A stretch of 44,164 nt of DNA from Oscillochloris sp. ZM17-4 (lineage in GTDB: Bacteria; Chloroflexota; Chloroflexia; Chloroflexales; Chloroflexaceae): contig NZ_JAIEWN010000003.1 in NCBI RefSeq assembly GCF_019599295.1, positions 55,497 through 99,660 on the forward strand, read 5' to 3'. Positions within the stretch are counted from its first letter, which is position 1, and each line of letters begins with the position of its first letter. A program made the position numbers and the translations under genes. Below the pieces are notes generated by a model that was not told where the DNA came from, made no database searches, and worked only from the letters and a program-made list of their open reading frames with translations. Shown one piece after another: positions 32,663 through 44,164 of this stretch.

Positions 32663-34669
32663 GTGCAACTGCCGAGCACCAACATACGGCGTATCTTCAG
32701 CTATGCGCTGGTGGGCGGACTCGCCCTCGGCGTGCTGATCGTTGGCTTCGTGCGGGCCGCCGATCTGAGCGTTGACCTCTCGCGTGAGGGGGCCGTGCTG
32801 CTCGCCCTGATCGTCGGCGCGCTCGTCGGGCTCTGCTTCATCGTCGCTATCAAGCTGGCGCTCCGCACGGTGGCCGCCTCGCTGCACCAGTACGCCGTCG
32901 CGCTTACCGAGACCTCGCTCCCGCCGCCGAAGACGCACGCCCTGGGCGACGAGGTTGCCTATATGCGCAACACGCTGGCCCGGGCCATTAAGAATGTGCC
33001 GCGCCCCGACAGCTACCCGCAGATAGCCCAAGGCCTGGCGATGGCCGCTGACACCCAGGCCGCCCTCGCCGTTGCGGCTGGCCATATCGCGAACCACCTC
33101 CAGATCCAGGGAGCCCTGCTGCTCATCCTCGACGGCGAGCGCGGCCTGCTCTACCCGTCGGCCACCTGGGGCCAGGCGAGCCTCCCTGATGGTGTCACCC
33201 TCGACCTGTATGAGACGGCTATCGGCCGCGCCCTCCAGGAGCAGCGCACGGCATTCTATAGCGGCGCGCAGGTGCGCGACCTGCTGCCGCTCCAGGTTGG
33301 CCCCGAGTCGATGACGCTGTTCTGCATGCCGCTGCTGGTGCGCGGCCAGCCCTTCGGCATGCTCTGCCTCACCAGCGCCGGCGCCGATGTGCGCCTCGGC
33401 GGTGATCAGCAGGCCTACGCCCGCTCGATCGCCGATATGCTCACCCTCGCTATCCAGAGCACGATGCACCGCATGCTGTTCGACCGCGAGAGCGACCGGC
33501 TGTCGGCCTTTGAGCGGCTGGGCACGATGATCGATAGCAGCGAGCGCTTCGAGTCCGCGCTTGAGCAGGTGCTCCGCGTCGCTGCGCGCGTGACCGACTC
33601 GATGCACGGGTCGCTCCTGCTCCTTGAGCCCGATGAGAGCCGCGTGCGCTACCGGATCACCCTGAAGGAGGGCGATCTTCTGCCGCTCAGCGTGACCGCC
33701 GGCGCCATTCTTAAGCACGGGCTGGCCGGCTGGGCGCTGCGTGAGCGCCGCGCCGATATTGTCGATGACGCCGAGCGCGATACGCGCTGGCTGCCGGTGC
33801 CCGGCCTCGGCGAGATGCGCTCGGTGCTGGTGGTGCCGCTGCTCTACGGCGAGCGCGCCCTCGGCGTGCTCACCCTTGCCGACCCTATCCCCCGGCACTA
33901 TAGCATGCGCAGCCTCGCTCTCGCCTCTGCCCTGGCCGCCTATGCGGTGAATATCCTCGCCCGCATGCAGCATGATGCGATGATCGATAGCGGCAGTATG
34001 GTTGTGGCTCGTCGGCTCTTTGAGGGGCGGATAAGCGCTGATGACCTGAACCGCCTGCTCGCTGACGCCGGCGCGATTGATCGCGCCCTTGCATCGCAGA
34101 CCCGCTTCGCCGTCGCGCTCTTTGTCGGCGTGCGCGGGCTCGACCGCATCGGCGAGCACCTGTCCGCCGATCAGGTGCTGACACAGGTGATCACGCCCTA
34201 CCTTGAGGAGATCAGCGCGATCGCCTACGAGCAACACGGCTATGTCGAGCACTACGACGACGGCAACTTCCTGGTGGTCTTTGGCTTCCCCTCCATTTAT
34301 GGCGATAGCCGTATCGCCGCCATCAAGGCCGCCCTCGCGATCCAGATCGTCGCTCGGCGCCTGCGCGGCCGCTGGCGCTCCCAGATCGGCTGCGACCTGA
34401 TGATGAGCGTCGGCCTCGCGCCCGGCACACTCACGTCTGGACTCGTGGGCGCCGATCTCCACCAGCGCTATGTGCTGATCGGCGATGCGATCCGTGAGGC
34501 GCGGCGGCTCCAGCAGCTCGCCCGCGCCGACGAGGTGCTGGTCTCTGATACACTGGTCGATAGCCTCGGCGCTGAGAGCGTCTTTCAGTTCGAGACTCTT
34601 GCGCCGTTTCACTCCGCGAGCGGCGATGGTATGCGCGCGGTGTATCGGCTCGCGGCAGGCCGCGCCTGA
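32663..34669 (+). CDS. membrane protein with GAF domains and degenerate class III cyclase domain
   Basis: A protein of 668 residues from GTG 32663. Two TM helices (SYALVGGLALGVLIVGFV, about 14-31, and GAVLLALIVGALVGLCFIV, about 43-62) are followed by a short linker, GAF 1 (about 120-270) and GAF 2 (285-435). The C-terminal cyclase fold (about 480-640) has FVGVRGLDRIGEHL where active enzymes have FADIRGFT, so the first metal Asp is Gly. YVLIGDAIREARRLQQL replaces the VNxAxRL Asn with Arg, and YDDGNFLVVFGFP is shifted from GDGxxAxFG. Nucleotide cyclisation is therefore unlikely and a sensory or binding role is more probable. A GAF-PAS kinase begins 58 bp downstream and is likely co-transcribed. 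Confidence 0.82.
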   Translation: MQLPSTNIRRIFSYALVGGLALGVLIVGFVRAADLSVDLSREGAVLLALIVGALVGLCFIVAIKLALRTVAASLHQYAVALTETSLPPPKTHALGDEVAYMRNTLARAIKNVPRPDSYPQIAQGLAMAADTQAALAVAAGHIANHLQIQGALLLILDGERGLLYPSATWGQASLPDGVTLDLYETAIGRALQEQRTAFYSGAQVRDLLPLQVGPESMTLFCMPLLVRGQPFGMLCLTSAGADVRLGGDQQAYARSIADMLTLAIQSTMHRMLFDRESDRLSAFERLGTMIDSSERFESALEQVLRVAARVTDSMHGSLLLLEPDESRVRYRITLKEGDLLPLSVTAGAILKHGLAGWALRERRADIVDDAERDTRWLPVPGLGEMRSVLVVPLLYGERALGVLTLADPIPRHYSMRSLALASALAAYAVNILARMQHDAMIDSGSMVVARRLFEGRISADDLNRLLADAGAIDRALASQTRFAVALFVGVRGLDRIGEHLSADQVLTQVITPYLEEISAIAYEQHGYVEHYDDGNFLVVFGFPSIYGDSRIAAIKAALAIQIVARRLRGRWRSQIGCDLMMSVGLAPGTLTSGLVGADLHQRYVLIGDAIREARRLQQLARADEVLVSDTLVDSLGAESVFQFETLAPFHSASGDGMRAVYRLAAGRA

Positions 34670-34727: not shown

Positions 34728-36944
34728 ATGATGAGTAAGGGCCTCTCGGTTCCGGCTTCCGGCGGCGATCCGTCGCTTATCGACCTGCGCACCACGGCGC
34801 TGCTGCGAATCGCCTCGGTCATCGAGACGGCTGCGACTCTTGATGAGCTGCTGATGCTCGGCCTCGCCGAGTTCTCGCAGCTCTTTGCTATCCCCTTTAG
34901 TGGCGTGCTCTTTGTCAGCGAGGATGGCACCACCGCCCGCATGGTCAATCTTCACCCGCCGCGGGTCAGCTTGCCGATGCCGATCACGCTCGTCGAGACG
35001 CCGTCTCTGCTCCAGGTCGTCACTGAGCGCCGGGTCGTCCAGATCGGCGACCTCCATGACGAGCAGTTTGGGGCACACGCCAGCGAGACGACGCGGCGGC
35101 TGATCCAGCTCCTCGACCGCGAGCATATCAGCTCGCTGCTGATGATCCCGCTGGTCGCTCAGGATCGGGTGATCGGCATCATGATCTTCGCGACGGTGGA
35201 TCATCCACGGCACTTCTCCGAGAGCGAGGTGGCCCTGGCCCGCCTGATGGCCGGGCAGCTCGCCGCCGCGATCACCTCGTTCCGCATCACCGAGCAGGCC
35301 CAGCGCCGCACCGCGGAGCTCGCCACCCTCAACGAGATCGCCGCCGCCGTCACCTCCTCGCTGAACGCGCGCGATGTCTACCACCTGGTGATGGAGAAGC
35401 TGAATGAGTACTTTCAGGTGGACGCCGGCTCGCTGCTGATGCTCGACCCCGAGACGGATGAGCTGGTCTTTGTGATGACGCTGGAGGCCGGCGAGGAGAA
35501 GCTCTTCGGCGTGCGCGTCCCGCAGGGCCAGGGGATCGTCGGGCTGGTGGCCCAGTCGCAGCGCTATGAGCTCGTCCACGATGTGCAGAACGACCCGCGC
35601 GTCTACGTCAAGGTGAGCGAGTCGGTGAACTACGAGGTGCATACCATCCTCTGCGTGCCGATCATTGTGAAGAATCGGACGATTGGGGTGATCGAGCTGC
35701 TCAACAAGCGCGACGGTATCTTCACCGAGGAGGATGCGGGACGCCTGATGCGGATGGCGGCGACCATCGGCGTCGCCATTGATAACGCGCGCCTCTTCCA
35801 GGAGGTGACGACGGTGCGCGACCGCTTCGAGGCCATCCTGAACTCGACGAACGATGGCATCCTGATGGCCGATATGCACGGCGCCGTGGTGACGGCGAAC
35901 CCGATGGCCGCCCAGATCTTCGCCTGCCGGAAGGAGCTGCTGATCGGTCGCCAGATCGATGATCTGCTGGCTGAGCTGAGCGCGCGCGCCCTCTCGGTGA
36001 GCAGCCCGTCATGGCTGAACGACGATGACTCCGCCGATCAGGTGGTTGAGCTGGAGCTGAGCAGCCCGCAGGCCCGCTTCATCCGCCACTATACGCTGCC
36101 GGTGCGCGAGGCGAACGGCTCCGAGATCGGTCGGCTCGCGCTGTTCCAGGATATCTCCAAGGAGCGTGAGCTGGCCCAGCTGCGTGAAGACTATACCGGG
36201 ATGCTCATCCACGATCTGCGCGCGCCGCTGACCGCGATCATGAACGGGATCATGATGGTCAAGCGCGGCCTCGGCGGGCCGATCTCCGACCAGCAGCAGG
36301 AGCTGCTGAGCATCGCCCACCAGGGCAGCCAGACGATGCTGGAGATGGTCAACACCCTGCTCGATATCTCGAAGATGGAGCAGGGTCACATGGCGCTGGA
36401 GGTGGAGCCGATCTCGCCCTATGCCCTCATCGATGAGACCCTCGACCGCCTGATCGTCTCTGCCCGTGACCAGAGGGTGCAGCTGGAGCAGCAGCTCTCG
36501 GTGAGCCTGCCCTTGCTGGAGGCCGATCGGGAGAAGCTCGTGCGCGTGCTCCAGAATCTTCTCGATAACGCGATCAAGTTCTCGCCGACCGGCGCCGCTG
36601 TGACGCTCGGCGCTGTCCACTTGCGGGTCGTCGAGGGTGTGACCGGCGCGGTGGATGGCCTGCCGCTGCAGTTGCCCGCGCTGCCCGCAGGCGACTGGCT
36701 GGCCTTCTGGGTGCGCGACCAGGGCCCGGGCATTCCGCCGCAATACCACGAGCGTATCTTTGAGAAGTTTGGCCAGGTGCGGGGGCGGAAAGTGCGCGGG
36801 ACGGGGCTGGGATTAACATTTTGTAAGCTCGCTATCGAGTCTCATGGGGGGAGAATCTGGCTGCAAAGTGCGGAGGGGAAGGGGAGTATTTTTGCGCTCG
36901 CGCTGCCGCTGAGCCAGGAGCAGCGGACGGCGAGCCCGTACTGA
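34728..36944 (+). CDS. GAF-GAF-PAS sensor histidine kinase
   Basis: A soluble kinase of 738 residues. ATG 34728 (a second ATG follows directly) is preceded by AAGGTGG; a longer frame from 34485 overlaps the previous gene and lacks support. GAF 1 (about 20-195, LGLAEFSQLFAIPFSGVLFV) and GAF 2 (205-365, LNEIAAAVTSSLNARDVYH) bind small ligands or chromophore-like molecules, unknown here. A PAS domain (370-490) precedes HisKA (MLIHDLRAPLTAIMNGIMM, phospho-His) and HATPase (LLDNAIKFSPTG, DQGPGIPPQYHERIFEKFG, GTGLGLTFCKLAIESHGG). No receiver is fused and no response regulator is adjacent. Pairing with the cyclase-like GAF protein just upstream is suggested by spacing. Confidence 0.92.
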   Translation: MMSKGLSVPASGGDPSLIDLRTTALLRIASVIETAATLDELLMLGLAEFSQLFAIPFSGVLFVSEDGTTARMVNLHPPRVSLPMPITLVETPSLLQVVTERRVVQIGDLHDEQFGAHASETTRRLIQLLDREHISSLLMIPLVAQDRVIGIMIFATVDHPRHFSESEVALARLMAGQLAAAITSFRITEQAQRRTAELATLNEIAAAVTSSLNARDVYHLVMEKLNEYFQVDAGSLLMLDPETDELVFVMTLEAGEEKLFGVRVPQGQGIVGLVAQSQRYELVHDVQNDPRVYVKVSESVNYEVHTILCVPIIVKNRTIGVIELLNKRDGIFTEEDAGRLMRMAATIGVAIDNARLFQEVTTVRDRFEAILNSTNDGILMADMHGAVVTANPMAAQIFACRKELLIGRQIDDLLAELSARALSVSSPSWLNDDDSADQVVELELSSPQARFIRHYTLPVREANGSEIGRLALFQDISKERELAQLREDYTGMLIHDLRAPLTAIMNGIMMVKRGLGGPISDQQQELLSIAHQGSQTMLEMVNTLLDISKMEQGHMALEVEPISPYALIDETLDRLIVSARDQRVQLEQQLSVSLPLLEADREKLVRVLQNLLDNAIKFSPTGAAVTLGAVHLRVVEGVTGAVDGLPLQLPALPAGDWLAFWVRDQGPGIPPQYHERIFEKFGQVRGRKVRGTGLGLTFCKLAIESHGGRIWLQSAEGKGSIFALALPLSQEQRTASPY

Positions 36945-36995: not shown

Positions 36996-37157
36996 CGCTT
37001 TACATCTTTGACATATTTTCGGTCGCCAACAATCAGTTTGTATGTGCTTTGGCAATCATATATAATGAAGTCGCCCCCTCATCTATCTATTACAAACTGT
37101 AAGAATAGAGTCTGACCAAAAGCTGCACCAGAGGCGCTTTACAGGTGACGCTTTAAT
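36996..37157 (+). repeat. CGCTTTA direct repeats before the surface-protein kinase
   Basis: CGCTTTACA at 36996-37004 and 37135-37143, and CGCTTTAAT at 37149-37157, flank the promoter at 37038-37066. They could be activator or repressor half-sites, or chance. Confidence 0.35.
37038..37066 (+). promoter_or_regulatory. promoter of the kinase/Calx-beta pair
   Basis: TTGTAT (37038-37043), 17 bp, TATAAT (37061-37066). It lies in a locally AT-rich gap. The ATG at 37181 leaves a ~105-nt leader. Confidence 0.6.
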
Positions 37158-37180: not shown

Positions 37181-40054
37181 ATGCGTCGCTTATACCGCGA
37201 GCTACAGTCACAAATTCATTACATGATCATCCTGCCCTATATCGTGCTGATGATCATTGTGATGCTGATTGGCTCCGGCATTGCGATTACGCTTGTGGCT
37301 GACAACTGGCAGGAGCGGTTCAATAACCAGCTCGGCCAGGTGGCGCGTAACTTCAGCGAGTCCTTTGCGCAGCGCGAGATTGGCAACATCACCTATCTCC
37401 GCCAGATCGAGTTCACCGCGCCGAACCAGGTCACCGGGGCGCCGTCGGTCGTCGATGCGATGCACGACCTCGATAGCGCCGGCCTTGAGCTCGCCTTCAA
37501 AGGGCTGTGGCAGGTGGGCCTGGGGAATGAGAATGTCGACCAGGATCGCCTGATCGTCTTTGACACCCGCGGCGTCTCGCTGCTCGACTGGGAGCGCAGC
37601 CCGGAGAATGCGAACGATCCCATTCGCTATGTCGGCACGAGCCTGTCGGACCTGCCTCTGGTGAAGGCGGTGCTGGGCAGGGAGCAGACGCCGATCGCCA
37701 ACAGCGACACCCTCGGCGATAAGTATAGCGGCCTGATCGCCTTCCGCTCGAAGAGCGGCACCGATAACCTCTACTTCTTCACTGTCGCCCCTGTCTACCT
37801 CAGCAACGCCGATACCACGGAGAGCACGCTGGTCGGCGGCCTGCTCGTGGCCCAGCGCCTCGATACGCTGCTTCAGTTTCTACAGAATAAGAGCCAGTCG
37901 GCGATCAGCACCATCTACGATGTCAACGGCGTCGCGCGGGCTACGACGGTCACCGGCGTCGATCCGATGGCGCTCGACCTTGACGCTGATCTGATCAATC
38001 AGGTGGCGGCGCTGAATGCGCCGGTCGCTGGCGCGGCCGAGGCCGGCGGCGGGCAGCGCACCGGCGATGCAGAGGACCCCTGCCTCGATATTGGCAACCT
38101 CACCGGCCGCCTCGTCACCCCCCTGGAGGCGACTCGGCTGCCCACATGCTCAGTCAACACCACGACGGTGCTCGCCGACCGGGAGTACCAGGTCGTCTAT
38201 GCGCCGCTGCTGATCCGCGGCGTTCAGTCGGGCTACTTTGCGGTCGGCCTCTCGCGTGACTTTGTGGTGAGCGCATGGTCGAGCAGCCGATCGGCTGTGC
38301 TGGCCGTGACCGCCGTGCTGGCGATGAGCGCCGTCTTTCTCGGCTACTATGTGGCCCGCCGGATCACGCTCCCCCTGGGCGACTTGGTCGATACGGCGGC
38401 GGCTGTCACCTCCGGCGACCTCGCCCGGCGCAGCCATGTGGCTGATGTGAATGAGCTCGGCCAGCTCTCGACCGCCTTCAACCAGATGACGGAGCACCTG
38501 CTGCGGCTCTACACCGCGAGCCGCGAGCTCAACCGCACGATCGAGATCGATGAGGTGCTGTCCGTCGTCAGCGCGGCTGCGGCGTCATTTGTCCCTGACA
38601 CCGAGGCTCTGGCGCTCATCGCTGCGGATGATCTCTACCTCTTCCGCGTTCGGCCCGAGGCGCCGGCCCCGCTGCGCGCCCTGGTCGGCCAGCAGCTTGC
38701 GGCCGACCACGTGCTCCTGACCGACCTTGCCACCCACGGCGATCAGGAGAGCCGGGTCTTGCCGATCGCTGACGCTGAGCTGCGCACGCAGGTGGGCCTG
38801 GGCGTTGATGTCGGCGTGCAGATGCTCTACGTCGCGCCGCTCTTTCGCCAGCGCCGCTTCTCTGGGGCGCTGCTCTTCGCCCTCTCAGGCTCCGACCCGC
38901 TCGATGAGGCGCAGCAGCAGAGCCTCGCGGTGATCGCGAATATGGCCCAGGCCGTGCTCTCGAACGCCGTGCTCTACGCCCAGGTCCAGCAGGATGCCAA
39001 GCAGCGCCAGGCCATCCTGACCTCGATCAGCGATGGCGTGGTGGTCTGCGATGAGCGCGGCCAGATTGTGTTGCTCAACCGCGCCGCCGAGCAGATCCTT
39101 GGCCGGTATGACTGGCAGCATTCTGCCCTGCGCTTCGCCGACCTGCCCCTGGAGCAGGTCGAGCAGCGCCGTGAGGTGTTTGGCCAGGGCCGCGATGAGC
39201 AGTTCCGCCTCGGCGAGCGCTTCATCACGCTCTCGCGGGCGCCTGTCGTCGCTGAGGACTCCCAGGCGCTCGGCGAGGTGATCGTCCTGCACGATGTCAC
39301 CGAGGCGGTCGCTATCGATAAGGCCAAGACGGACTTTATCGCCACGATCTCGCACGAGCTGCGGACGCCGCTCACCGTGATCCGCGGCTTCACCGAGCTG
39401 CTGCTGCGCGGCCGCGGCGACGAGGCGCTGACGGCAGATCAGTCCGACCTGCTTGGCCAGGTGCGCGCCAGGGCCGTCGATATGACCAATATGGTCAATA
39501 ACGCGATCATGATTGCCGATATTGAGTCCGGCCAGCTCCAGACCGATCTGCAGCCCCAGGATGTCGAGCTGGTGCTCAGCATGGCGATGGCGCCGCTGCG
39601 CCAGGGCTTTGAGTCGAAGAATATCGCGGTCAACCTGGATCTTCCGCCCGACCTGCCGCCGGTCCTGGCAGACCGCGAGCAGCTGAAGCGTGCCTTCGGC
39701 CAGATCCTCGATAACGCCATGCGCTACACAGATGCGGGCAGCGTGACGGTCCGGGCCTCTCTGGATGCCCGTAACAACATCCAGGTGGATATTATCGATA
39801 CGGGCCACGGCATCTCATCCGAGATGCTGCCGATGCTCTTTAAGCGATTCCAGCGCGTTGAGGGCAATAACTCAGCCCAGCGCGGCGGCGGCCTCGGCCT
39901 CGCTATCACTCGGCAGCTGATCGACCGCCACGGCGGGAGTGTCGGCGTCGTGAGCACGCCCGGCCAGGGAAGCACGTTTACAATTACGCTGTTGCAGGCC
40001 AATGAACACTCGCTCGCGGTCGCACAATCAAACGGATCCACGGCGTCGTCGTGA
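37181..40054 (+). CDS. membrane sensor kinase, extracellular sensor-HAMP-GAF-PAS-HK
   Basis: A protein of 957 residues. TM 1 (MIILPYIVLMIIVMLIGSGI, about 12-32) and TM 2 (SAVLAVTAVLAMSAVFLGYY, about 370-390) enclose a ~330-residue extracellular domain, probably a Cache-type ligand sensor (VYAPLLIRGVQSGYFAVGL, with LIVFDTRGVSLLDWE). HAMP (RRITLPLGDLVDTAAAVTSG), GAF (about 445-600), PAS (610-715), HisKA (FIATISHELRTPLTVIRGF) and HATPase (ILDNAMRYTDAG, DTGHGISSEMLPMLF, GGGLGLAITRQLIDRHGG) follow. It has its own good promoter. Its last 53 bp overlap the start of the giant Calx-beta protein in another frame, so the kinase and the surface protein should be made together. No receiver partner is adjacent. 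Confidence 0.93.
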   Translation: MRRLYRELQSQIHYMIILPYIVLMIIVMLIGSGIAITLVADNWQERFNNQLGQVARNFSESFAQREIGNITYLRQIEFTAPNQVTGAPSVVDAMHDLDSAGLELAFKGLWQVGLGNENVDQDRLIVFDTRGVSLLDWERSPENANDPIRYVGTSLSDLPLVKAVLGREQTPIANSDTLGDKYSGLIAFRSKSGTDNLYFFTVAPVYLSNADTTESTLVGGLLVAQRLDTLLQFLQNKSQSAISTIYDVNGVARATTVTGVDPMALDLDADLINQVAALNAPVAGAAEAGGGQRTGDAEDPCLDIGNLTGRLVTPLEATRLPTCSVNTTTVLADREYQVVYAPLLIRGVQSGYFAVGLSRDFVVSAWSSSRSAVLAVTAVLAMSAVFLGYYVARRITLPLGDLVDTAAAVTSGDLARRSHVADVNELGQLSTAFNQMTEHLLRLYTASRELNRTIEIDEVLSVVSAAAASFVPDTEALALIAADDLYLFRVRPEAPAPLRALVGQQLAADHVLLTDLATHGDQESRVLPIADAELRTQVGLGVDVGVQMLYVAPLFRQRRFSGALLFALSGSDPLDEAQQQSLAVIANMAQAVLSNAVLYAQVQQDAKQRQAILTSISDGVVVCDERGQIVLLNRAAEQILGRYDWQHSALRFADLPLEQVEQRREVFGQGRDEQFRLGERFITLSRAPVVAEDSQALGEVIVLHDVTEAVAIDKAKTDFIATISHELRTPLTVIRGFTELLLRGRGDEALTADQSDLLGQVRARAVDMTNMVNNAIMIADIESGQLQTDLQPQDVELVLSMAMAPLRQGFESKNIAVNLDLPPDLPPVLADREQLKRAFGQILDNAMRYTDAGSVTVRASLDARNNIQVDIIDTGHGISSEMLPMLFKRFQRVEGNNSAQRGGGLGLAITRQLIDRHGGSVGVVSTPGQGSTFTITLLQANEHSLAVAQSNGSTASS

Positions 40055-43000
40055 CGGGCTAGCATGGCTTGTCCTTCTCGCCCTACTCCTTGCGCTCCTC
40101 CCTATTGGGTGTGTCGCCGATCTGGCGCTGCGCTTCGTGACGCCCTCCAACGCGCCGTTTAAGGATGTCGGCTCCTCGTCGGGACTGAGCGCCTACATGC
40201 CCTTCCCTCCAGGCCTGAGCTACGCCGCCCCCGACCCGAACCTGCCGAACCTGCGCGAGACGGAGATCGCTCGCCGCGAGCTGACGCCGGTGGGGCTGCG
40301 CGGCGCGATCACCGTCGCCCCAGTCGTTGAGGTGGCTCCCCCGGTCTCACAGATCGACCCGCCGACGCCGACGGCGACGCCGACGGCCGTCGCTGCGCAG
40401 CGCCCCACCGCGACAAAAGCCCCCTCTCCCACCGATGTGGCCGGCGGCGCGGGCATCTCCCCCACCCCGACAAGCCTGGTGATCATCTCTGGCTCCACGG
40501 CTACCACCGGCCCTACGCTGCCCCCCTCACCGACGACCCCGCGCACGCCGACGGCGACAACCACCACTCTGCCGACGAATGGGGCCGCGACGCCAACGCG
40601 TACGCTGGTGCCGCTGCCCAGCGATACGAGCATCCCGATAGCTACGCCGACCCTGCCGCTGGTGAGCACGCCGACCCTGCCGCTGGTAAGCACGCCGACC
40701 CCGCCGCTGGTAAGCACGCCGACCCCGCCGCTGGTGAGCACTGCCACGCCGACTCAGACGGAGGTGCCGACGCAGACGCCGACGCAGACGCCGACGCAGA
40801 CGCCGACGCAGACGCTCTCGCCAACTCCGTCGAGCACGCCAACATCGACGCGTGTGCCCGACCCGGTGCCCACCGGCTTCTTCGCCGCGACGACCGTCTC
40901 TGTGGCTGAGGGGAACAGCGGCCTCACCGCTCTGACCTTTACCGTGAGCCTGGATATCAGGGCGATCTCGACGGCGCAGGTGAGCTTCCGCACGATCGAC
41001 GGCACGGCGACGGTCGCGAACAATGACTATCAGGCACTCAATGGCGTGCTCACCTTCCTGCCCGGCGAGCAGACAAAGACGATCACGGTGCAGGTGGTCG
41101 GCGATGTGGTCGATGAGCTTGATGAGTCGTTTATCCTTGAGCTCTTTAACCCGCAGGGCCTCAGGCTGCTGTCGGCGCTGCCGCAGGCGACTGGCACGAT
41201 CCTGAACGATGATGATCCTGCGGTGAGCATCGCCGTGGCGTCCCCGGCGTCGGGCAGCGTGGCCGAGGGCTCTGCCGGCATTACGACGACGGTCACGCTG
41301 AATGTGAGCCTGAGCAGTGTGAGCCTCCAGCCCGTCACGGTGAACTACGCTACGGCCGATGGCACGGCGACGACGGCGAACAATGACTATGTGGCCGCCA
41401 GCGGCACGCTGACCTTCGCGCCCGGCGAGACTCTTAAGACGATCTCGGTCGTGGTGAACGGCGATACGGTCGCCGAGCTGAACGAGGCATTCACCGTCGC
41501 CCTGAGCGCCCCGACAAACGCCACGCTTGGCATATCGCCGGCGACGATCACTATCCTCAACGATGACCTGCCGCGGGTGGGCATCAGCCCGGCGACAGTG
41601 AGCGTGACGGAGGGCACCTCAGCGACCGGCACGACGCCGATGACCTTTACGGTAACGCTGCTCGACCCGGCCAGCGCGGCGGTGAGCCTGAGCTATGCGA
41701 CGGTCGGGTCGGGCACGAACCCGGCGACGATCGGCACGGATGTGACAACTGCGAGCGTGAGCGGCACCCTCACCTTCCCCGCGGGCGCGCCTGCTGGTAC
41801 GACCCGTACAATCACGCTCCAGGTGGTTCAGGATAGCATCGCTGAGCAGAACGAGGCGCTGACGGTCACGCTGACGGCTCCCGCGCCCGCCAGCGCGCAG
41901 ATCACCGTCGGCAGCGCCACCGGCACGATCCTCGACGATGATCTGCCGCGGGTGAGCATCAGCCCGGCGACGCGCAGCGTGACCGAGGGCACCTCAGCGG
42001 CCGGCACGACGCCGATGACCTTTACGGTGACGCTGCTCGACCCGGCCAGCGCGGCGGTGAGCCTGAGCTATGCCGCCGCCGGGTCGGGCGCAAACCCGGC
42101 GACGATCGGTACGGATGTGACAACTGCGAGCGCGAGCGGCACCCTTACCTTCCCGGCGGGGTCGGCCGCCGGCACGACCCAGACGATCACGCTGCAGGTG
42201 GTGCAGGATAGCATCACTGAGCCGAACGAGACGCTGACGGTCACGCTGACGGCGCCCGCGCCCGCCAGCGCGCAGATCACGGCCGGCAGCGCCATCGGCA
42301 CGATTACCGACGATGACTTCTCAACCATCACCATTGACTCGCCATCGATTACCGAGGGGGACAGCGGGACGAAGGTCTTGACCTTTACGGTGACTCTGCC
42401 CGCTCCAGTGCCGGCTGGCTACACGGTGACGGTCAACTATGACCCCACGGTGAATGGGACGGCGACGGCTGGCTCGGATTACGTCGCTCTGGCGGCTGGC
42501 TCGGTCAACATCAATGCGGGCCAGCAGACAGGGCTGATCGTTGTGACGATCAATGGCGACACGACCTACGAGCTGGACGAGACATTCACCATCTCGCTGA
42601 CGAGCGCGAGCGTGAGCGGCTTCTCTGCCCCGATTATCGGGGCGACTGGCACGGGTACGATCATCAATGACGACACGCTGACTGCGAGTATTGACTCGCC
42701 ATCGATTACCGAGGGGAACAGTGGGACGAAGGTCTTGACCTTTACGGTGAGCCTGAACGCCCAGCCATCGGCGCTTATCGCGCCGGTGACCGTTGTCTAT
42801 CTGGTGCAGGATGGCACGGCGACCGTAGCCGATAGCGATTACATAGCTGCCCCCGCGACTGGGACTTTCACCTTCACCAGTGCAGGGGGCATGACTCGGC
42901 AAATCCCGGTGACGATCATCGGCGACACGACAGCGGAGCCGGACGAAACCTTCACGATCCAGCTTCAGAACCCGACTGGCGGTGCGGTGATCTCGGCGAC

Positions 43001-44164
43001 AAACGGCACGGGCACCGGCACCATCCTCAACGATGACTTCTCGACGCTGACATTTAATGCCCCCTCAGTCCTTGAGGGCGCGGCTGGCGTAACGACCACG
43101 CTCAACTTCCGCGCGACCTTCGTGTCGCCGCCTACCTCTGCCGGCGTGATTATCTACAGCACGGCTGATGGCACTGCCACGGTCGCTAACAATGATTATG
43201 TGCCCGTGACAAACGGCATCGTCGCCTTTGCTGCCAACGCTCCTTTTGTGGACTTGCCGGTGACGATCAACGGCGATGATGCCCTCGAGCCCGATGAGAC
43301 GTTCTCGGTGTCGATCACTGGCCCGATCGGCAACGGCGCTACGGGCACCGGCACGATCACCAACGATGACTCGGTCGTTGGCTTCAACAAGACGGCGGTG
43401 CTGGGTCTGAACACAGGGCCGGGCGGCACGACCGCGGTGCGGTATACGATCACGATCAACAATCCGCTATCGACGGGCATTCCCCTGAATGTGATTGTCA
43501 CCGATACGCTCGACGCCACCTACAATCTGACGAATACGCCACCACCAAGTGCAAGCCTTGCTGGCGCATTCACATTCACGACAGGCACCGGCGCGACAGT
43601 GAGCTGGAACGGCACCATACCGGTAGGTGCCACGCTGGTGATCACGATAGATGGTACGTTCCCGAATGTTGGGGCCTGCCAGACGCGCTACAACACCAGT
43701 CTGGTGCTACAGGTTGAGGCGTCTGCGCCGAGTCAAAGTCTAGACTCGGCCCCAGTGAATATCGACTCCGCTGGCCCCTGCACGCTGCTGCGCCTCGCCT
43801 CGCCCTTCCTGCGCAAGCCGCTCCTGCCGCTGGCGCTGCCTGCGCGCGCCGACGCTGCCCCCGCGCCGACGGCGACGGCCACGCTGACCTCCACCGCCAC
43901 AGCGCGGCCCACGGCGACGCCCACGGCGACGAGCACGAGCACGCCCACGGCCACGAGCACGGCCACGGCCACGCTGACGCCGACCAACACGCTCACGCCG
44001 ACGGGGACGCCGACGCCGACGAAGAAGCCGAATTCTAGCAGGCCGCCAGATCCGACGCTGACAAGCACGCCGGTGCCCGCGCCGACGAGCACGCCAGTGC
44101 CGCCAACAAGCACGCCGGTGCCCGCGCCGACGAGCACGCCAGTGCCGCCAACGAGCACGTCAGT
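40002..44164 (+). CDS. giant exported Calx-beta repeat protein, 3' partial
   Basis: The open frame runs from ATG 40002 to the window end without a stop (1,387 codons read), so it is partial. The N-terminus is basic (RRRDG) then hydrophobic (LAWLVLLALLLALLPIGCVA), a signal peptide or anchor with a lipobox-like IGC. After a Thr/Pro-rich stretch (about 118-292, repeating TPTLPLVS and TQTP units) come seven Calx-beta domains (about 293-1123). Each has the pattern SVxEGxSG ... DGTATxxxNDY ... GTLTFxPG ... DExFxxxL ... GTIxNDD, with Asp/Glu clusters expected to bind calcium. A DUF11-like domain (about 1124-1252) and a second Thr/Pro tail follow. Domains 3 and 4 are near-duplicates. Role: probable calcium-dependent adhesion or sheath protein. 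The start overlaps the sensor kinase by 53 bp. Confidence 0.88.
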   Translation, partial: MNTRSRSHNQTDPRRRRDGLAWLVLLALLLALLPIGCVADLALRFVTPSNAPFKDVGSSSGLSAYMPFPPGLSYAAPDPNLPNLRETEIARRELTPVGLRGAITVAPVVEVAPPVSQIDPPTPTATPTAVAAQRPTATKAPSPTDVAGGAGISPTPTSLVIISGSTATTGPTLPPSPTTPRTPTATTTTLPTNGAATPTRTLVPLPSDTSIPIATPTLPLVSTPTLPLVSTPTPPLVSTPTPPLVSTATPTQTEVPTQTPTQTPTQTPTQTLSPTPSSTPTSTRVPDPVPTGFFAATTVSVAEGNSGLTALTFTVSLDIRAISTAQVSFRTIDGTATVANNDYQALNGVLTFLPGEQTKTITVQVVGDVVDELDESFILELFNPQGLRLLSALPQATGTILNDDDPAVSIAVASPASGSVAEGSAGITTTVTLNVSLSSVSLQPVTVNYATADGTATTANNDYVAASGTLTFAPGETLKTISVVVNGDTVAELNEAFTVALSAPTNATLGISPATITILNDDLPRVGISPATVSVTEGTSATGTTPMTFTVTLLDPASAAVSLSYATVGSGTNPATIGTDVTTASVSGTLTFPAGAPAGTTRTITLQVVQDSIAEQNEALTVTLTAPAPASAQITVGSATGTILDDDLPRVSISPATRSVTEGTSAAGTTPMTFTVTLLDPASAAVSLSYAAAGSGANPATIGTDVTTASASGTLTFPAGSAAGTTQTITLQVVQDSITEPNETLTVTLTAPAPASAQITAGSAIGTITDDDFSTITIDSPSITEGDSGTKVLTFTVTLPAPVPAGYTVTVNYDPTVNGTATAGSDYVALAAGSVNINAGQQTGLIVVTINGDTTYELDETFTISLTSASVSGFSAPIIGATGTGTIINDDTLTASIDSPSITEGNSGTKVLTFTVSLNAQPSALIAPVTVVYLVQDGTATVADSDYIAAPATGTFTFTSAGGMTRQIPVTIIGDTTAEPDETFTIQLQNPTGGAVISATNGTGTGTILNDDFSTLTFNAPSVLEGAAGVTTTLNFRATFVSPPTSAGVIIYSTADGTATVANNDYVPVTNGIVAFAANAPFVDLPVTINGDDALEPDETFSVSITGPIGNGATGTGTITNDDSVVGFNKTAVLGLNTGPGGTTAVRYTITINNPLSTGIPLNVIVTDTLDATYNLTNTPPPSASLAGAFTFTTGTGATVSWNGTIPVGATLVITIDGTFPNVGACQTRYNTSLVLQVEASAPSQSLDSAPVNIDSAGPCTLLRLASPFLRKPLLPLALPARADAAPAPTATATLTSTATARPTATPTATSTSTPTATSTATATLTPTNTLTPTGTPTPTKKPNSSRPPDPTLTSTPVPAPTSTPVPPTSTPVPAPTSTPVPPTSTS
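41573..42313 (+). repeat. tandem duplicated Calx-beta units (domains 3 and 4)
   Basis: 41573-41943 and 41944-42316 are close copies: both begin CTGCCGCGGGTG and share many long identical runs (for example GATGTGACAACTGCGAGCG). Domains 5 and 6 also share a 27-bp identical segment (42333-42359 and 42690-42716). Recent unequal recombination is the likely cause. Confidence 0.8.

Follow-up and report, generated by a model that had tools for sequence, protein, structure and literature searches.

A dCache sensor kinase and a membrane-anchored stalk protein encoded by overlapping genes in Chloroflexales, a candidate receptor with a tethered accessory subunit

Introduction

In Oscillochloris sp. ZM17-4 (Chloroflexota, Chloroflexales), the gene of a membrane sensor histidine kinase runs into that of a large surface protein with Calx-beta repeats. 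Do these two genes encode a single device and, if so, of what kind? The original prediction, made on the 44,164-nucleotide stretch of contig NZ_JAIEWN010000003.1 analysed here (the window), proposed a feedback unit in which the kinase monitors the surface or calcium state set by its partner. Accessory subunits of bacterial receptors have usually come to light singly, through genetics. Accessory proteins that act on kinases form a known kind, exemplified by LuxP-LuxQ and by QseG-QseE, in which QseG is an outer-membrane lipoprotein (PMC12691602).

Results

Two genes sharing one junction

The kinase frame, the Calx-beta gene opening with the ATG at position 40002 and their 53-bp overlap were all confirmed by ORF coordinates and Pfam (Table 1). 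The ATG is the natural start of the partner, since the next in-frame ATG, GTG or TTG is a GTG at 40137, from which the membrane helix would be lost. In the parent contig the partner gene is complete, with 1451 codons (33 of them N-masked) and a stop 193 bp past the window end. The promoter that had been proposed before the kinase is plausible: its -10 box is perfect and its -35 box weak, with a 17-bp spacing that is identical in three to four related genomes. Since the -35 box matches at only 3 of 6 positions, a consensus promoter scan misses this element; the same scan found no second promoter on the + strand between it and the partner start, and we infer that receptor and partner are made from one message. 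The window had no Rfam match, and PADLOC returned no defence-system match.

Table 1 Features of the kinase-partner locus (window coordinates).
Feature	Position	Strand	Basis or content
Soluble GAF-GAF-PAS histidine kinase upstream of the pair	34728..36944; ORF opens 34485	+	Pfam; start by alignment with relatives
Sigma-70-like promoter of the pair, TTGTAT-17 bp-TATAAT	37038..37066	+	Perfect -10, weak -35; conserved
Membrane sensor histidine kinase, 957 aa	37181..40054	+	ORF; Pfam HAMP, PAS, HisKA, HATPase_c; orthologues match full length
N-terminal helix with TM1, extracytoplasmic double-Cache (dCache) sensor, TM2	37181..38365	+	AlphaFold2, Foldseek, homologues' PF14827 dCache_3
HAMP domain	38351..38503	+	Pfam, residues 391-441
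HisKA and HATPase_c kinase core	39323..39994	+	Pfam, residues 715-784 and 831-938
53-bp overlap	40002..40054	+	Encodes kinase tail (NEHSLAVAQSNGSTASS) and partner cytoplasmic tail (MNTRSRSHNQTDPRRRR)
Membrane-anchored stalk (partner) protein	40002..44164, runs off window	+	ORF; complete in parent contig, L041 3499-7854
Single transmembrane helix of partner, residues 16-46	40047..40139	+	Hydropathy; helix 16-46 in model
Juxtamembrane Y-x-P-[W/F] motif, Y65-F68	40194..40205	+	Partner alignment, three paralogous systems
Thr/Pro-rich stalk of partner	40359..40871	+	Sequence
Calx-beta repeats (7) of partner	40872..43376	+	Pfam E 6e-88, 7 stretches

The receptor is a dCache sensor kinase

With a HisKA phospho-acceptor domain and HATPase_c behind HAMP and PAS, the upstream gene encodes a histidine kinase; in the NCBI families it matches named kinases only below their cut-offs. 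Its sensor was modelled by AlphaFold2 (pLDDT 76, pTM 0.67) as a dCache, a pair of PAS-like modules carried by a long N-terminal helix and flanked by transmembrane helices on both sides, and the best Foldseek matches of the model were dCache ligand-binding domains of kinases and chemoreceptors, LuxQ and LuxP-LuxQ included. The window kinase itself has no Pfam Cache match; homologous sensors match PF14827 (dCache_3). Domains of this fold mostly have small ligands and may function without a partner. No response regulator was found among the neighbouring genes read.

The partner is an anchored stalk with an exchangeable head

From the inside outwards, the partner consists of a basic cytoplasmic tail, a single membrane helix, the YxP[W/F] motif, a Thr/Pro stalk and outer domains. 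Across the three paralogous systems described below, the tyrosine was present in all 42 aligned partners, as was a tryptophan or phenylalanine three residues on (42/42), mostly with a proline between them; farther out, only the Pro-rich transition to the stalk was conserved. Modelled alone, the membrane-proximal segment showed no fold beyond the helix (pLDDT 59), as would be expected of a docking segment.

The outer domains, in contrast to this constant base, vary. In the window they are Calx-beta repeats, scoring 291 bits against a Pfam cut-off of 27; they resemble the calcium-binding domains of Na/Ca exchangers (E 3e-17), most of them retain the DY, E..E and NDD acidic positions, and the partner's only match in the NCBI families was an exchanger model, through these repeats. 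Calx-beta heads recur in many relatives, Roseiflexus types carry DUF11, a member from another class carries CBM96, and elsewhere no domain was recognised. Because one head can replace another, calcium is not what unites the family, and the calcium state invoked by the original prediction is not supported as its theme. For the Calx-beta head in the window itself, calcium binding is possible, judging from the repeats.

The pair is conserved across the order

A protein search with the kinase retrieved 25 Chloroflexales-like relatives and one distant match, and a transmembrane protein started inside the kinase tail in every one of these relatives with a readable junction. At the level of the order, a profile of the kinase sensor matched 64 of 82 genomes and a profile of the first 130 partner residues matched 54, mostly twice each; no genome among the 82 had the partner profile without the sensor. 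Sensor-only genomes, checked where the contig allowed, had a partner there too, for example in Herpetosiphon-type members, where the genes overlap by 4 bp or lie 17 bp apart. In total, a transmembrane protein with a stalk stood behind 86 of the 90 readable kinases of this family, from 56 genomes of the order. As for the four exceptions, two (L109 and L114) have a partner by an earlier reading, one stretch ends 133 bp past the kinase and one frame was misread. The overlap measured 53 bp in 46 of the 86 pairs and 50 bp in 11, and lay between 41 and 59 bp in 68.

As a control we took the 30 best HATPase loci of the same genome, 28 of which were readable, a few with a short downstream stretch: none of these 28 other histidine kinases was followed by such a neighbour. 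Relatives with unlinked genes were sought across the order, and the linkage was not refuted; the genes are thus a real conserved pair, as had been anticipated, and the partner shows the dedicated genetic linkage to a receptor that marks kinase accessory proteins of the LuxP and QseG type.

Three paralogous systems and their surroundings

In a quick sensor tree, all members from the order fell into one clade (SH-aLRT 99) with three groups. System 1 comprises the window and the Roseiflexus and Herpetosiphon types; the members inspected have a soluble GAF-PAS kinase upstream, and the gene order with a GAF-GAF-PAS kinase before the pair is common to Chloroflexaceae-, Roseiflexus- and Herpetosiphon-type relatives. 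Directly upstream of this soluble kinase, the window encodes a class III nucleotide cyclase with two GAF domains (32663-34669). Similar cyclase genes lie there in several relatives, so that system 1 may belong to a larger signalling cluster.

In system 2 the kinase is shorter (~770 aa) and the partner can reach 3396 aa; upstream, the members inspected have a divergent gene recognised by eye as metallo-beta-lactamase-like. Giant partners of this system (3145-3396 aa) were seen at L104 (328-9834), L101 (3531-12968) and L112; the one that was scanned, from L104, contained Calx-beta repeats, a LapA-like match and long stretches without an assigned domain. In system 3 the overlaps are shorter or replaced by gaps (26, 41, -1, -34 and -238 bp, negative values being gaps).

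Two further copies were noted in the genome of the window. One pair (L044 6050-8978, C150) also has a 53-bp overlap, with a partner of merely 195 aa against 1200-3400 aa in relatives, whose head seems to have been lost in this genome or interrupted. The other is a third kinase copy (L095, C95, strand -) that is separated by 238 bp from a partner-like gene of 180 aa downstream; this pair seems to have loosened.

Stalk partners accompany dCache receptors with other outputs

Beyond the order, we searched a phylum sample of 400 genomes with both profiles. The partner profile gave weak matches in ten genomes outside the order. Six of the better ones adjoin dCache_3 receptors, five of them lying directly behind, and the receptor outputs were HD-GYP (three), class III cyclase (two) and histidine kinase (one). 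Three weak matches (L166, L173 and L174) were judged unrelated. Receptors of this kind were picked up by the sensor profile in 82 of the 400 genomes, order included. Under the same rule as before, 25 of the 41 readable receptors outside the order had a neighbour with a transmembrane helix and a stalk (20 of 35 without the six found via the partner). No such neighbour was present for the other 16, among them all four receptors with a GGDEF output, and the receptor can therefore work alone.

Since dCache receptors with HD-GYP or cyclase outputs keep the stalk partner, the partner mostly follows the sensor and not the kinase. Several partners outside the order carry ADYSPD, ADYSAD, ADYGPG or a similar sequence just outside the helix, and one group of kinases from another family (f13) has the same layout with the motif absent. 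Outside the order, the two genes usually overlap by 4 bp or 1 bp or are separated by a short gap, which makes the long overlap a Chloroflexales feature.

Three individual loci deserve mention. In another class of the phylum, the gene behind an HD-GYP receptor encodes a stalk protein whose head is a carbohydrate-binding CBM96 domain (L165 2205-5471). At L169 (1257-3473, strand -), a stalk protein is paired with a dCache cyclase bearing an N-terminal response-regulator receiver domain, possibly a point where the kinase and cyclase branches meet. Finally, a partner-like gene with an ANYAPW motif and a stalk (L172; G369 C106) lies near transposition-like genes with no adjacent receptor and is possibly an orphan partner.

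The long overlap and translation of the partner

When the partner peptide was held fixed and its codons were drawn at random, the kinase stop fell at the observed place with a mean probability of 0.096 (37 pairs); with the kinase tail fixed, the ATG was kept in 0.52 and the partner frame stayed open in 0.82. The rows are related, so these values count as support and not as a strict test or proof. An overlap of 53 or 50 bp was kept in systems 1 and 2 despite junction peptides that differ almost completely, so that the 53-bp overlap is probably older than the split of the two systems.

A Shine-Dalgarno run of at least 4 was absent at 19 of 20 partner starts and present at 10 of 17 kinase starts. 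Because the partner start lacks such a run and lies inside the kinase frame, partner synthesis probably depends on translation of the receptor, which would hold the partner ratio low. More than 80% of gene overlaps are shorter than 30 bp, and overlaps beyond ~25 nt reduce termination-reinitiation (PMC12548453), so that coupling here may be weak or proceed by some other means; another survey found that long overlaps, those exceeding 100 bp included, were not negligible (PMC2174442). The coat and lysis genes of phage MS2 resemble our pair in having a ~50-nt overlap, a downstream start inside the upstream frame and a suggested dependence on upstream translation, for which RNA unfolding has been proposed as the route (overlap -50 nt; PMC12548453). 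They differ in being phage genes, whereas here the arrangement joins a receptor to a stalk protein and is kept across an order and its paralogues. No RNA structure beyond that of shuffled sequences was detected at the junction (z +1.03), and none in the alignment either.

Discussion

On balance, these comparisons of sequence lead us to think, with confidence a little above even, that both genes belong to a single signalling device, made up of a dCache receptor and a dedicated membrane-tethered accessory subunit that would contact it. The helix and juxtamembrane motif of the partner would dock on the transmembrane or dCache part of the receptor; the stalk and head would extend across the envelope to contact a surface, matrix or ligand, the head serving outside as the variable probe of the receptor; and head engagement or stalk tension would alter receptor output, here histidine kinase activity. 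Such docking fits a partner that tracks the sensor and not the output and whose conserved part is membrane-proximal, as well as a sensor whose fold has a known protein partner in LuxP-LuxQ. Against it count the 16 of 41 unpartnered receptors outside the order, the orphan-like gene at L172 and the dCache domains that bind small ligands. The recurrence of the pairing in much of the phylum despite differing receptor outputs suggests that the stalk is a functional component of the receptor. More tentatively, and here we lean slightly to the doubtful side, Chloroflexota may use modular outside-in receptors widely across the phylum, in which a dCache core and a stalk subunit joined through a YxP[W/F] dock would have their heads (Calx-beta, DUF11, CBM96) and outputs (histidine kinase, HD-GYP, cyclase) swapped independently, with the stoichiometry set in Chloroflexales by the ~53-bp overlap.

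Could the two proteins instead never touch, the kinase sensing something else and controlling the co-transcribed surface protein, or simply sharing its message? Kinase genes are often linked to their targets, and a single conserved promoter and tight overlap would suit a regulatory operon of this sort; yet the pairing persists with HD-GYP or cyclase receptors, no response regulator lies beside the pair, and what is conserved in the partner is the membrane-proximal segment and not a functional head, all of which makes this explanation rather unlikely. The same kinase-less pairs bear on the predicted feedback unit, which is not the best reading: their shared element is the sensor with its stalk, not a kinase controlling an adhesin, and feedback of a kinase on adhesin expression fits less well. 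The calcium version, in which the surface Calx-beta protein binds calcium and the kinase reads that state, draws on the likeness of the repeats to exchanger domains and on their mostly kept acidic positions. We regard it as improbable given that Calx-beta is not conserved in the family and gives way to DUF11 in Roseiflexus and to CBM96 or no recognised domain elsewhere. Thr/Pro-rich membrane proteins are, by general impression, common in Chloroflexota, and their chance juxtaposition with kinases might have been suspected; such a neighbour follows 86 of 90 kinases of this family and 0 of the 28 controls, which refutes the idea, and we give it practically no weight.

The overlap itself calls for a separate judgement, as it could be functionless evolutionary inertia in GC-rich DNA, where linkage alone matters, a view compatible with the accessory-subunit reading. 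Stop codons are rare in GC-rich frames, the overlap varies in multiples of three, the junction is free of RNA structure, and the overlap has been lost in several lineages (-34 to 17 bp in some Chloroflexus-type members, 4 or -17 bp in Herpetosiphon-type ones). Random codons, however, give the stop position at only ~10% per pair, yet two paralogous systems kept it. Inertia is accordingly a serious contender for the overlap, if not quite the one we would choose.

How does the proposed accessory subunit compare with described systems? LuxP-LuxQ of Vibrio likewise combines a dCache-type receptor kinase with a separate extracytoplasmic protein, and its structures were among our fold matches; LuxP is a soluble periplasmic ligand-binding protein, whereas the window's partner is anchored in the membrane and carries a Thr/Pro stalk, with heads that are exchangeable within its family. 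In QseG-QseE, YycH/YycI-WalK and SaeP/SaeQ-SaeS, a linked accessory protein reaches the kinase from outside and alters its activity, but to our knowledge none of them has a stalk, a YxP[W/F] motif, a long overlap or relatives that accompany receptors other than kinases. The window partner resembles surface proteins built on Calx-beta repeats in carrying seven such repeats, which in the partner family are an optional head and not the defining part. The claim that no such system had been described stood up in the literature searched, mostly open papers: no paper brought Calx-beta and histidine kinase together with Chloroflex-, and the one that mentioned both Calx-beta and Chloroflexi was an unrelated genome report. 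We know of no description of a stalked, membrane-tethered accessory form with exchangeable heads and outputs.

Genome comparison thus points to a whole family of accessory subunits, whose likely dock is a short defined motif, in a phylum where genetic tools are scarce. The pair is also a naturally occurring example of a 53-bp overlap that has persisted across an order and through a gene duplication. Through it, the way in which filamentous, gliding Chloroflexota perceive contact with surfaces or mats could be put to the test.
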